From assembly GCA_019690095.1 (NCBI GenBank), contig JADGGD010000001.1, positions 1-64,000 of the forward strand: 64,000 nucleotides of DNA, read 5' to 3'. Both the position numbers and the translations under genes were made by a program. The notes beneath the pieces were generated by a model. The model made no database searches. It had not been told where the DNA came from and saw only the letters and a program-made list of their open reading frames with translations. This DNA is from Chloroflexota bacterium (GTDB taxonomy: Bacteria > Chloroflexota > UBA6077 > FW602-bin22 > CADDYW01). Each line of letters opens with the position of its first letter. The stretch's first letter is position 1. Shown piece after piece: positions 39,756-45,414 of the stretch.

Positions 39756-40223
39756 ATGGCTCGGAACACGAAGCAGCAGAACACTGCGGTAGTGGCTCGC
39801 CGTCCGGAAGAGCGCTATCTTCCGCTGAGCCAGGTCATCGATCGCCTCTTCCAGGAGAGCTTCCTGCCGCAGTCGATGCTGGATGGTTTTGGCCCGCGGT
39901 TTGGTTCTGATGGGACCAATCTGTGGGAGACTGGTGATCGCTACATCGTTCAGCTTGCGATGCCCGGCGTGAATCCGGGCTCGATCTCCTGCCGCATTGA
40001 GCAGAATGTCTTGATCTGCACCGGCGAGTCGGCCCTTCAGCCGCCGAAGGACGCAACCCCGATCTGGGAGGCCCTTGGCGGTAACGTCGAGCATCGTATC
40101 GAGCTGCCGACCGAGGTCGATCCGGGCAAGGCAGAGGCGACCTATGAGCACGGCGTACTCACCGTGACTGTACCCAAGGCCGCTCACGTGCGCGCCCATT
40201 CGATCAAGGTCACAGCGAAGTGA
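39756..40223 (+). CDS. Small heat shock protein, Hsp20/alpha-crystallin family
   Basis: A 155-residue ATP-independent chaperone. The alpha-crystallin domain runs from ~52 to 145: DRYIVQLAMPGVNPGSI, EHRIELPTEVDPGKAEATY and the family signature GVLTVTVPKA. The N-terminal region is short and polar, and the C-terminal I-X-I-like motif appears as SIKV. AAGGAGGTGAGG lies before the ATG and may be masked by upstream pairing. It holds unfolding proteins in soluble form during heat stress. Confidence 0.93.
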   Translation: MARNTKQQNTAVVARRPEERYLPLSQVIDRLFQESFLPQSMLDGFGPRFGSDGTNLWETGDRYIVQLAMPGVNPGSISCRIEQNVLICTGESALQPPKDATPIWEALGGNVEHRIELPTEVDPGKAEATYEHGVLTVTVPKAAHVRAHSIKVTAK

Positions 40224-40278
40224 TCCTTCCCCGGTCCGCGGCCAGGCGGACCCAGGGAGGGTAACCCATAACGTGCGT

Positions 40279-40314
40279 CCGGGAGGCCCCTGTCGTCAGG
40301 CAGGGGCCTCCCGG
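40279..40314 (+). terminator. Hairpin downstream of hsp20
   Basis: Perfect 14-bp stem: CCGGGAGGCCCCTG (40279-40292), an 8-base loop, and CAGGGGCCTCCCGG (40301-40314). No T-tract. It lies 22 bases before the peroxiredoxin ATG and may end the hsp20 message or block its decay. Confidence 0.65.
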
Positions 40315-40335
40315 CGTGATCGGGAGGTGCACACC

Positions 40336-41073
40336 ATGACCGGACGACCATATACGCGGCGACTCAATGATCTGGAGGAACGATTTGCCGCTCTCGCCCC
40401 GGATATTCCCGAGGGACCGTCAAAGGAGGCTCTCTCGCTTCTGCACGGGATGATCCAGGAGCTCTGGCGGGCGCTCCGTCCCGGCGCGGCCGAGTCGACG
40501 AATCAGCTGACACTCGATGACATTGCCAATCTGTACAAGACGGCGCCTCGGATGGAAGGGATCGCCGAGAACCAGCCTCTACCAGTGGGAACCCCGGCGC
40601 CCGATTTCACCCTGCCCGATGCCAATGGTCAGCCAGTGTCGCTCCGAGATTTCCGCGGCTCGCCGGTCGTCCTCGTCTTCTATCCCCTGGACTGGAGCCC
40701 AACCTGTAGTGATCAGCTGAGCCTTTACCAGGCGGAGATCGACGAGTTCGCGCGATATGGGGCGCGCATCCTGGCTGTTTCGGTGGACAGCATTTACAGC
40801 CATGGTGCGTGGGCGGCCGTGAGAGGCCTGACTTTCCCACTGCTCTCGGATTTCGAGCCCAAAGGAGAGGTGGCGCGGCTCTATCGGGTCTGGCGCCAGC
40901 GTGATGGATTCTCCGAGCGCGCCCTTTACATTATTGATCCCGATGGGATCATCCGCTACGCCCACGTCTCGCCCCGGCTTGATCAGGTACCGGATATCTA
41001 CGAACTGTACCGCGCCCTGGAGGGGATCGCGCGGCCCGAACGGGCGGCTGCCGCGGGCGTGGCTGGAGGGTGA
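40336..41073 (+). CDS. Peroxiredoxin (AhpC/TSA) with N-terminal helical extension
   Basis: A 245-residue protein. Residues ~1-80 are a charged helical extension with no family I recognise. The peroxiredoxin domain (~84-235) starts VGTPAPDFTLPDANGQPVSL; the peroxidatic Cys124 is in PLDWSPTCSDQ, and the Arg of the active site is in the later EVARLYRVWRQ region. No clear resolving Cys is visible, so it may rely on the glutaredoxins encoded just downstream. GGGAGG precedes the ATG. It is the first gene of a probable thiol-redox operon. Confidence 0.87.
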   Translation: MTGRPYTRRLNDLEERFAALAPDIPEGPSKEALSLLHGMIQELWRALRPGAAESTNQLTLDDIANLYKTAPRMEGIAENQPLPVGTPAPDFTLPDANGQPVSLRDFRGSPVVLVFYPLDWSPTCSDQLSLYQAEIDEFARYGARILAVSVDSIYSHGAWAAVRGLTFPLLSDFEPKGEVARLYRVWRQRDGFSERALYIIDPDGIIRYAHVSPRLDQVPDIYELYRALEGIARPERAAAAGVAGG

Positions 41074-41077
41074 AGCC

Positions 41078-41383
41078 GTGTCGCTCTTTCGGACCGGTCG
41101 ATATGCCCCCTACGGGGTCCGCAGTGCACCGGTGATCGCCCCGGTCACGGTCTATGGGACATCCTGGTGCGCTGCGACCCAGCTGATTCGACGGTACCTG
41201 GATCGAGCCGGCATTCCCTACCGGTACGTGGATCTGGAGAGCAATCCTGAGGCCGCGGCCCGTCTCCGCTGGCTGACCGGTGGCTACGTCAGCCATCCGA
41301 CTGTGAGTGTCGCGGGTGAGATCCTGGTTGAGCCGAGCCTCGGTGAGCTGGACTGGGCGTTGAGTCGCGCGGGCTTGATCTAA
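41078..41383 (+). CDS. Glutaredoxin-like protein (single active-site Cys)
   Basis: A 101-residue glutaredoxin/mycoredoxin-like protein. The active site is YGTSWCAATQ with only Cys31; the second Cys position is Thr. The cis-Pro loop is SHPTVSVAGEIL. The GTG at 41078 follows the peroxiredoxin stop by 4 bases with GGAGGG upstream, so the two are translationally linked. A monothiol redoxin of this kind could reduce the peroxiredoxin via a low-molecular thiol. Confidence 0.83.
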   Translation: MSLFRTGRYAPYGVRSAPVIAPVTVYGTSWCAATQLIRRYLDRAGIPYRYVDLESNPEAAARLRWLTGGYVSHPTVSVAGEILVEPSLGELDWALSRAGLI

Positions 41384-41396
41384 AGCTATGCTGTCT

Positions 41397-41448
41397 GACG
41401 CGGCCGGCCGTGAGGCATGGTGAGTGGGGTGTCGCGGCTGGCCGCGTC
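41397..41448 (+). other. Long stem-loop between the two glutaredoxin genes
   Basis: GACGCGGCCGGCC (41397-41409) pairs with GGCTGGCCGCGTC (41436-41448), 12 of 13 positions, around a 26-base loop. It may separate expression of the selenocysteine-type gene from the upstream two. Confidence 0.5.
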
Positions 41449-41510
41449 CGGCGCCGTTCGCATTCTGGGGATCACGTTGGTCGTGCCCCGAGGGATTGAG
41501 AGGAAGCACG

Positions 41511-42020
41511 ATGGGTGCTCTTGAGGGGTCGGTTACCGTCTACAGCACGCCGACCTGACCATGGTGCACGCGTGCGAAGGAGTTCCTTCGCCAGCACGGC
41601 ATCCCCTTTCAGGAGAGGGATGTCTCGCGTGATCCATCCGCGGCCCAGGAGCTGGTGCGCCGCAGTGGGCAGATGGGCGTGCCGGTCATCGTGGCGGGGG
41701 ACGAGGTCATCATCGGATTCGATCGATCCCGCCTTGCTCGCCTGGTAGAGCGCATGCGGGGACAGATTTCCCGTCCGCGCCTCGGCGCCCTGGTGAAGGA
41801 GATGCCGGGGAAAGGCCTTCTGGTCGGGGGAGTGCGGGAGGGGTCTCCCGCAGCGCAGGCTGGCCTGCGCCCGGGCGATCTGATCGTGACGGTGGATCGT
41901 GTGCCGGTTCGGACGATCCCTGATCTCCAGCACATGATCGGGGAGCGGCGTCCAGGGGAATCGGCACGTCTCGAGATTTACCGGGATGGTCAGCCGCTCA
42001 TACTGCAGCTCGCGTTTTAG
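41511..42020 (+). CDS. Candidate selenocysteine glutaredoxin-PDZ fusion (in-frame TGA at 41556-41558)
   Basis: Read through one TGA this is a 169-residue protein. Residues 1-80 are a glutaredoxin (YSTPT-U-PWCTRAKEF, later SGQMGVPVIVAGDEVIIGFD). The TGA takes exactly the place of the first Cys of the usual CPxC active site, giving U16-P-W-C19. Residues ~88-169 are a PDZ domain (GGVREGSPAAQAGLRPGDLI). The frame is intact on both sides, the ATG has AGAGGAAG upstream, and a 7-bp hairpin lies 22 bases after the TGA. Alternatives are a nonsense mutation or a sequence error; the exact Cys replacement and hairpin favour selenocysteine. A fragment starting after the TGA would lack the redox site. Confidence 0.7.
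41571..41598 (+). promoter_or_regulatory. SECIS-like hairpin after the in-frame TGA
   Basis: GCGAAGG (41574-41580), apical loop AGTT (41581-41584) and CCTTCGC (41585-41591) form a perfect 7-bp stem. An alternative keeps GAAGG/CCTTC and adds a lower stem CGTGC (41571-41575) with GCACG (41594-41598) below a GCCA bulge. The loop starts 22 bases after the TGA and has G in its first two bases, as in bacterial SECIS elements. Confidence 0.6.
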
Positions 42021-42247
42021 CTCGCCGGACATCCCCGTCTGCTTTCCTCTCCGCGGACTGCGCTTTCTGGAAGGCTTCTGATCCAGAGAGAACTTCCAGA
42101 TCGCTGCGCGGATAAGAGTTGTTGACATCCCGGACGCGGGCAATTCGATCGTCAATATTCCAACTGATAGCTGATCTATTTCTTACGGGAACCAGATAGT
42201 TCGTGGTCTACGCTGAACGTGGACAACGGTTCCTGCTGGAGGATGCG
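42021..42247 (+). other. Gap upstream of ftsH
   Basis: A 227-base non-coding stretch. TTGACA occurs at 42122-42127 but no matching -10 lies 16-18 bases below it, so no promoter is called. The A/T-rich part (42150-42185) may hold one. Confidence 0.3.
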
Positions 42248-44203
42248 ATGCGCCGCGTTCCTCTTAAAGGGTGGGTAATCATTCTCATCCTCGTCGCGAT
42301 CTGGAACCTGCTCTTCTATGCTCCGATTTTGACGTCGACTCAACCCCCACCAACAGTCACCCTTCCGTACAGTGCATTCGTGCAGCAAGTAGAGCAGGGG
42401 ACCGTTCAGAAGGTGATGATCAGCGGAACGACGATTACAGGTGAGTTTCGCCAGCCCGTAACCCTGGGTGCAGAGGGGAAACCGCCCCGGTCGTACCGTT
42501 ATTTCTCGACCGAGGTTCCGGCGGTCTCGGATCGGCTCCTCGCCTTGCTCGAGCAGGAGAACGTCGAGATCACCGTGCATAATCCGGAGCCGCCGCTCTG
42601 GCTCCAGGCCCTCGGCGTGCTGGCTAATATCCTGCCGTTGCTGTTCCTTCTCGGTCTCTTTGGCCTGAGTGCCTATCAGGTGCGGCAGGCACAGGGCGGG
42701 CTGGGGAACGTGTTTGGCTTCGGCAAAAGCCGGGCGCGCGTCTACACCGAAGAGCGGCCCCGGGTGACCTTTGCGGATGTCGCCGGCTGTGAGGAGGCGA
42801 AGCAGGAGCTGCAGGAGGTTATTGCCTTCCTGCGCGATCCGCAGCGGTTCCATCGCATCGGGGCACGAATCCCTCGGGGGGTTCTGCTGTCGGGGCCTCC
42901 CGGCACGGGTAAGACCCTGCTTGCGCGAGCTGTCGCCGGAGAGGCCGGCGTTCCCTTCTTCAGTATCAGCGCCACCGAGTTTGTCGAGATGTTTGTTGGC
43001 GTCGGGGCGAGCCGCGTCCGCGACCTGTTCCAGCAGGCGAAGGCGAAGGCTCCGTGCATCATCTTCATCGACGAAATCGACGCCGTTGGACGGGCGCGCG
43101 GCGGCGGGTTTGGTGCGGTCAATGACGAGCGCGAGCAGACCCTCAATCAGCTCCTGGTCGAGATGGATGGCTTCGAGACCAATCAGGACGTGATCGTTCT
43201 GGCGGCGACCAACCGTCCCGATGTTCTCGATCCGGCCCTGCTCCGGCCAGGACGGTTTGATCGTCAGGTCACCGTGGATCGGCCCGATCGCCGTGGACGT
43301 GAAGCGATTCTCCGTCTGCATACTCGGGGCAAGCCAATCGCGCCGGACGTGCGGCTCGACATCATTGCCCAGGAGACGCCGGGTCTGGCGGGCGCAGATC
43401 TGGCCAACCTGGTCAACGAGGCCGCCCTGGCCGCGGCGCGGGCGGGTAAGTCGGAGATTGGCCAGGACGAGTTCGCCGAGGCCATCGATAAGGTACTGCT
43501 GGGGGTCCGACGAGGGATTCTTCTTGATCCCGAGGAACGGCGGGGTGTGGCCTACCACGAGGCAGGGCACGCGATTGTGGCGGCGTTCACGCCAGGGGCT
43601 GATCCGATCCAAAAGGTTTCGATCATCCCACGCGGTCGGGCCCTGGGTATTACCCAGCTCGTGCCCATGGATGACAAGCATAACTACACCCGCTCGTACC
43701 TCCTGGGACGACTGGCGATCATGCTGGGCGGCCGCGCGGCCGAGGAGATCGCTCTCGGCGAGGTCACGACCGGTGCCGAGAACGATCTCAAGGAGGTTCG
43801 GCGGCTGGCGCGGAAGATGGTCACAGAGTGGGCGATGGTGCCCGGATTGCCGCCCAGCGCGCTCGAAGATAGCGACGCTCCCACATTTGCAACCCGTCCG
43901 TGGCCTAGCGAGGGGCGGGAGCACAGTGAGCAGACTGCTCGTATGATTGATGAGGCGATCGCATCGCTCGTCGGGGAGGCCTACCAGCGCGCTCGGCAGA
44001 TTCTGCTGGCCCGGCGCGCCCAGCTCGACGCGCTCGCGGAGGCCCTGCTTCGCGAGGAGACGATCGAGGGTGAGGAGATCCGGCGCCTCCTGGGGGAGGC
44101 TGTCACTGCAGAAGCGAATCCCGACGGCCGGGTGACCGCGCCGGATCTGGCAGACCTGCCGCGCGCTTCCAGTGGATCTCCATGGAGCGGAGGTGAGGCA
44201 TGA
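42248..44203 (+). CDS. ftsH: ATP-dependent zinc metalloprotease FtsH
   Basis: A 651-residue membrane protease. Membrane segments at ~9-28 and ~118-140 flank a small outer domain. The AAA domain has Walker A GPPGTGKT, Walker [12 protein letters not shown], and the second-region Arg fingers (RPGRFDRQ). The zinc site is HEAGH (437-441) with the third ligand Asp in GAENDLKEV. It degrades membrane and short-lived proteins. Start ATG 42248 has GGAGG upstream. The stop overlaps the metallophosphoesterase-BON gene start by 4 bases (ATGA). Confidence 0.96.
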
Positions 44204-45414
44204 AAATCCTGGCAATTGCAGATATTGCCGGCCGTGTCGATCTTCTTGACCGGCTGGTGAGCGAGGTGCGTGAGACGGGTATTGAGGCGGTCTTCTTTGT
44301 CGGCAATGCGCTGACCGGTGGAGCCCGGCTGGACGAATGGATGCGCTCGCAGGTTGATGGGCGTCCGCCGCGCTACCACCTGGCCGAGCTCGAAAGCCAG
44401 GAGCGCCAGGACGCCCAGACCCTCGATGAGATCCTCGATCTCCTGGGGCGCTTCGGCGTGCCGGTTCGGCTCGTCCCGGGTGATCTCGATGCACCGGAGC
44501 GCCTGTTCGTCCAGGCCGTGCGCAATCACGAGCTGATCACGCCGGATGTTGTCTGCGTCCATCGCTCGTTCACGCTGGGCCCGCGCAACTATGCTGTCGC
44601 TGGCTTTGGCGGGCTGATAGATGACGGTGCGCGCGAGCATACGCTGGTCCTGCGCTATCCCTCCTGGGAGGCCAAGGCCGGTCTGGATTTTGTTCGGCGC
44701 CTTGAACGCGATCTGATTCTCCTCTTCCATACGCCGCCGCGATTTGGATCACTTGATCGCCACGATGGGGCGTTGGTTGGCTCGCCAACCATCGAGGAGA
44801 TCATTCATACCTACGATCCACACCTCGTCGTCTGTGGCCACGCGGCCAATGGGCAGGGCGCGACGGTTGTCGGCCGGACCCTTGTCGTGAACCCCGGTCC
44901 GCTGTGCTACGGCGCGTATGCGCTCATTGACCTCGCCTCTCGGGACGTGGAGTTTCGCCGCCTTGAAGGCGGTGGGCCCGCACAGTCGGAAGCCGATCGC
45001 GCCCTCCAGCGGCAGATCGAGCAGGCGCTGGAGGAGGAAGCAGTCACGCGCGGCTCCGGGATTAGCGTCGTCGTGCGTGATGGCATCGCGCGTCTCTTCG
45101 GCACGGTTCGTTCGATCGCGGTCAAGGCCAGGGCCCACGAGGTGGCCCGCTCGGTTCACGGTGTTCGCGAGGTCGAGAATGTCCTGACAGCCGACAGTAC
45201 GCTCGCCGCGCAGATCACCGCGCGGCTGGCCAGCGACCCACGCACGGCCCTGGCGACGATCGACGTGACATCAGTTGGCGGTGAGGTAACCCTTTCTGGC
45301 ACAGTCGAGTCGCCGGGGATCCGTGAAGCGGCCGAGCTGATCGCCCGCTCGGTGCCGGGGGTGAAGCTCGTAATCAACGAGCTTAAGGTCGCCGCTCGCG
45401 CTTCCAGTTCATAA
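44200..45414 (+). CDS. Metallophosphoesterase-like protein fused to two BON domains
   Basis: A 404-residue protein. Residues ~1-255 have the calcineurin-like fold with altered metal motifs: DIAG for DxHG, GNALTGG for GDxxD, PGDLDAPE for GNHD, then LFHTPPR and [11 protein letters not shown], which are better kept. Two BON domains follow (~275-338 and ~345-400: [13 protein letters not shown] and [14 protein letters not shown]), each ending in a VxGVxxVxN-like pattern. BON domains usually bind membranes or lipids. Its start is coupled to ftsH (ATGA). The phosphatase may be partly degraded or act on an unusual substrate. Confidence 0.75.

Follow-up and report, generated by a model that had tools for sequence, protein, structure and literature searches.

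A very probable bacterial SECIS hairpin in the coding region of a predicted selenocysteine glutaredoxin-PDZ fusion from Chloroflexota

In the established bacterial pathway, SelB carrying Sec-tRNA binds a hairpin and decodes the UGA upstream of it as selenocysteine. The bacterial SECIS (bSECIS) model of Zhang and Gladyshev describes such hairpins by an apical loop of 3-9 nt with at least one G in its first two bases, a stem of 4-16 bp, a distance of 16-37 nt from UGA to apical loop, and a hairpin energy of at most -7.5 kcal/mol (PMC13188914). A 2026 catalogue that covers 119 families of prokaryotic selenoproteins includes a glutaredoxin (Grx; PF00462, UxxC), marked there as verified by experiment, and a separate Trx7/PDZ selenoprotein, for which its text names PDZ once and nowhere else (PMC13188914). 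In the two reviews of prokaryotic selenoproteins that name both glutaredoxin and a PDZ domain, PDZ refers to the Trx7/PDZ family.

The hairpin described here lies in the window, the whole 64,000-nucleotide stretch of Chloroflexota DNA that was analysed. With a 7-bp stem, a 4-nt loop containing G then U, a spacing of 22 nt, and an energy of -10.4 kcal/mol, it falls within all published bSECIS parameters; beyond these, it is kept with UGA and absent with Cys. It differs from the model in nothing essential, its family having two stem registers. Comparison of homologous sequences makes it very probable that this is a genuine, working bacterial SECIS element within the coding sequence for a glutaredoxin-PDZ fusion. 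A bacterial SECIS had been proposed in the initial annotation, and conservation of the stem in TGA homologs, its absence in Cys homologs, and the selenocysteine machinery of the genome all support that proposal.

The gene and its hairpin

The features of the locus, all on the forward strand, are as follows.

41500..41506 (+), probable Shine-Dalgarno sequence GAGGAAG, as read from the sequence upstream of the start codon ATG (41511)
41511..42020 (+), coding region for the Sec-glutaredoxin-PDZ fusion; translating TGA16 as Sec gives 169 residues (translation, Pfam, AlphaFold2)
41532..41711 (+), glutaredoxin domain, residues 8-67 (Pfam PF00462, 5.2e-22; TIGR02196 and NF041212 above cut-off)
41556..41558 (+), in-frame TGA, predicted Sec codon 16, with which the UxxC active site (TUPWC) opens; aligned with TGA in 33 homologs and with TGC or TGT (Cys) in 59
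41574-41580/41585-41591 (+), putative SECIS hairpin, 7-bp stem (folding; conservation with covariation)
41581-41584 (+), apical loop AGUU (DNA AGTT), with GU at 41582-41583 invariant in 34/34 TGA sequences
41790..41999 (+), PDZ domain (PDZ_2), residues 94-163 (Pfam PF13180, 7.7e-14)

Translation of the ORF (41511-42020, +) gives MGALEGSVTVYSTPT-U-PWCTRAKEFLRQHG...; its single in-frame TGA is at 41556-41558, and there is no further internal stop when TGA is translated as U. NCBIfam places its Grx domain in both the YruB-type and the Uxx-star glutaredoxin-like families, above cut-off in each case. The active site T-U-P-x-C, a PF00462 site with Sec first and a resolving Cys, is invariant in 24 aligned homologs. 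An AlphaFold2 model built from 24 sequences (mean pLDDT 91.5, pTM 0.60) has two domains of high confidence with a linker of lower confidence between them, and Sec16 lies immediately before the first helix, the classical position of a glutaredoxin active site. From its domains, the product is probably a thiol/selenol reductase for which the PDZ domain provides a partner. The neighbourhood (39756-45414 of the window) contains genes for a small heat-shock protein, a peroxiredoxin, and a Cys glutaredoxin-like protein upstream and ftsH downstream. Inspection of the ORFs flanking 15 relatives revealed no obvious conserved partner; the inspected flanks differ from those in the window, and one relative (L027) has a DnaJ-like ORF directly downstream.

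The stem arms, GCGAAGG (41574-41580) and CCTTCGC (41585-41591), pair perfectly over 7 bp, so the main stem and its AGTT loop stand as first annotated. The spacing had been misassigned: 22 nt was counted to the stem, which in fact starts 15 nt from the TGA, while it is the apical loop that starts at 22 nt (41559-41580 between). As the 16-37 nt rule concerns the apical loop, the element still passes. Similarly, G had been placed in the first two loop bases but occupies only the second (A-G-U-U), which suffices for a model asking for at least one. A lower helper stem (41571-41575 with 41594-41598) had also been suggested. It shares 41574-41575 with the main stem, so that the two cannot both form in full, and with 46% of its cells paired across the TGA sequences, hardly above the shuffled level, it is not conserved and was rejected.

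Folded alone, the 18-nt hairpin has an energy of -10.4 kcal/mol, matched by 0 of 200 shuffles. Within 61 nt of context the minimum free energy structure contains the same stem (z = -2.3; 3/200 shuffles equally stable). The pattern of TGA plus hairpin occurs once in the whole genome. An Rfam scan of the window gave no match at the gathering score, and at E up to 10 only chance matches to unrelated families appeared around the site. Taken on its own, in G+C-rich DNA, the signal from this single sequence is modest: among the 1729 TGA triplets that the window contains, 57 (3.3%) are followed by an equally stable hairpin at allowed spacing, and when the same peptide was recoded with synonymous codons 20000 times, 285 versions (1.4%; p = 0.014) did as well or better. 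The case for a SECIS element is therefore made by conservation.

Conservation with TGA and absence with cysteine

Homologs were collected by family, class, and phylum searches and from species genomes. The active-site codon is TGA in 34 of them, that of the window included, and TGC or TGT in 59. The initial annotation had named two findings that would speak against its proposal, loss of the stem in TGA homologs and an equal stem in Cys homologs, and neither was observed. In each of the 34 TGA sequences, one of two registers retains no fewer than 85% of the stem pairs (every pair in 25 sequences), with the loop 22-23 nt from the TGA in every case, whereas none of the 59 Cys sequences has a complete stem; these counts are not independent, as the TGA sequences are related to each other. 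The remaining exception, L072, is a TGA sequence with one mismatch inside the stem. Hairpins scored with their loop 20-25 nt past the codon average -7.8 kcal/mol in TGA sequences and -0.1 kcal/mol in the others. GU is present in the loop of 34/34 TGA but 23/59 Cys sequences (Fisher 2e-10), and the Leu codon of the 3' arm is CTT in 31/34 TGA sequences, compared to 4 of the 53 Leu codons of Cys sequences. We regard this comparison of TGA and Cys forms as the decisive argument for SECIS function. A candidate recoding of TAG as Sec, in homolog L088, was rejected, the active site there being TGT (Cys) and the TAG lying elsewhere.

The same comparison bears on whether the conserved peptide AKEFLR/S and high G+C content could by themselves produce the hairpin, which would then have no function in RNA. 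Some stem complementarity is inherent in the peptide, and with wobbles and inner mismatches allowed, one register has 85% or more of its pairs in 8 of the 59 Cys sequences; the frequency of equally stable hairpins after TGA triplets of the window points the same way. However, each of these eight has a mismatch, sometimes wobbles, and mostly no loop G. Synonymous-codon tests reach p<=0.05 in 32/34 TGA sequences but in 0/61 non-TGA sequences, and Cys homologs with the same AKEFL peptide (L069 and L074) have a broken 3' arm. Together with the covariation of synonymous codons across the stem, this makes a by-product very improbable.

The stem of the family has two registers. A 7-bp stem with a 4-nt loop goes with Arg and an 8-bp stem with a 3-nt loop goes with Ser, seven sequences, including that of the window, having Arg (CGC) where others have Ser (TCN). 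In the 27 sequences of the 8-bp register, 96.3% of cells are paired, compared to 38-68% for slid structures, and there are 24 double-change cells, a number reached by 0 of 500 shuffles. The clearest case is the second pair, which changes from C-G to U-A as Ala GCG with Ser TCG becomes Val GTG with Ser TCA; nine sequences have GCG/TCG and 11 have GTG/TCA, and the other four with GCG or GTG have TCC. Since the choice of Ser codon is silent in the protein, the constraint acts on the RNA.

A phylogeny of 39 Grx-PDZ proteins implies six exchanges between Sec and Cys in its best tree, and no fewer than five independent ones when well-supported branches are counted; presence of the stem follows each switch. 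A sign test on five switches gives p = 0.06, the lowest value that so few switches allow. In this tree the window gene is closest to L069, a Cys form in which the 5' arm and the first Leu bases match and the 3' arm is broken.

Selenocysteine machinery and the decoding of UGA16

The same draft genome encodes SelA (470.8 bits), full-length SelB (357.4 bits), and SelD (370.3 bits), as well as a tRNA-Sec with anticodon UCA (69.6 bits); a tRNA search of the 64-kb window itself found none. With selA, selB, selC, and selD all present, the genome qualifies as Sec-decoding. The four genes lie on four different contigs of this assembly (G000: C276, C23, C35, and C294; L001, L012, L018, and L004) and are not visible as one operon. 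SelA was not found in G008, an 88% complete genome carrying a TGA gene, which may be due to incompleteness of the assembly. Three genomes with Cys forms (G005, G018, and G022) do have SelA, so Cys is used there despite the machinery.

Alternatively, the TGA could be a genuine stop codon, or it could stem from a sequencing error or from a lesion in a pseudogene. Standard annotation would indeed terminate the gene there after 15 codons, and the genome is a draft of 403 contigs. Yet 33 homologs, spread over many families, have TGA at this very codon, others have Cys there, and the protein is conserved on both sides of it, leaving this reading very improbable. Least likely is that TGA is an ordinary sense codon in this genome, which would likewise leave the ORF open, as TGA terminates neighbouring genes, such as that of the peroxiredoxin (41073), and the genome has a dedicated tRNA-Sec and SelB.

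The SECIS reading, by way of the established SelB pathway, explains all observations on the hairpin, its coupling to TGA, and the machinery. When the ribosome reaches UGA, the 16th codon, SelB with Sec-tRNA(UCA) would bind the hairpin, probably contacting the GU of the loop 22 nt downstream, and selenocysteine would be delivered instead of termination. The predicted product is a redox protein of 169 residues in which a glutaredoxin domain with Sec-Pro-Trp-Cys is followed by a PDZ domain, which probably holds the protein to a partner or substrate.

Relatives and known selenoprotein families

Several further relatives were also observed. Among annotated plasmids, the best relative is from Candidatus Chlorohelix, in line with Chloroflexota as the probable phylum. 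In Candidatus Chlorohelix allophototropha (L135 2998-3543, NZ_CP128401.1), Grx and PDZ are two separate adjacent genes adjoining those for rhodanese, TusA, and thioredoxin reductase, a neighbourhood that hints at a sulfur or thiol role. Two Grx-PDZ relatives, L129 (around 219) and L130 (around 217), have Asp in the alignment column of Sec/Cys, and Ser close to the resolving Cys (NDPQS and GDPAS); by these residues they are apparently redox-dead paralogs. A second TGA-containing Grx in G011 (L086 1747-1800) has a conserved hairpin, and its frame stops 65 residues past the TGA, leaving no PDZ domain in that frame. TGA forms are found outside the phylum of the window as well, in Candidatus Zymogenus and Rubrobacteraceae (L044 1124-1177 and L053 1379-1432, respectively). 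Both are too short for a PDZ domain, and in L053 the stem sequence is largely changed with pairing intact (GAGGTAGAGTATCTATCTC). Cys homologs from Methanomicrobiales (L031, L032, L034, L037, L038, L039, L041, L042, and L043) extend for ~370 residues beyond the active site, possibly as a fusion with another domain.

What would appear under standard annotation as a truncated gene is a real one, and the Sec-Grx-PDZ form occurs in numerous families of one phylum. With its repeated switches between Sec and Cys, and its two registers tied to Arg or Ser, the family offers a natural experiment on how protein sequence is constrained by an RNA signal and on how that signal decays after Sec is lost. A wider view, which we hold to be doubtful, is that Sec-Grx-PDZ is an uncatalogued architecture, widespread in the phylum, in which PDZ would direct a selenol reductant to certain proteins by way of their C-termini; the targets may be misfolded or membrane proteins (in the window the gene is flanked by a peroxiredoxin/Hsp20 group and ftsH).

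Regardless of that role, the hairpin itself is an ordinary bSECIS, and UxxC Sec-glutaredoxins are already known; it is the Sec-Grx-PDZ fusion that appears uncatalogued. No description of a glutaredoxin-PDZ selenoprotein, in Chloroflexi or elsewhere, was found in the literature searched. The protein shares with the catalogued selenoprotein Grx its Grx domain, UxxC active site, and Cys homologs, but has a C-terminal PDZ domain, and NCBIfam assigns it to the YruB type and not to glutaredoxin 3, where its 57 bits fall short of the cut-off of 90. With NF041212, the Uxx-star family glutaredoxin-like (seleno)protein, it shares U as the first residue of the active site; with Cys replacing Sec, P0001 scores 71.7 bits, above the cut-off of 66, and a six-frame search with the stop in place gives 65.1 bits, just under it. 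The NF041212 model, however, spans ~70 residues, the Grx domain alone, whereas a PDZ domain follows here. NF041199, the Trx7/PDZ domain-containing selenoprotein, likewise combines a thioredoxin-fold domain and PDZ in one selenoprotein, but with a CxxU motif and a Thioredoxin_7 domain where the present family has UxxC in a glutaredoxin; at 37.6 bits against a cut-off of 300, from the PDZ part only, our protein falls outside it.
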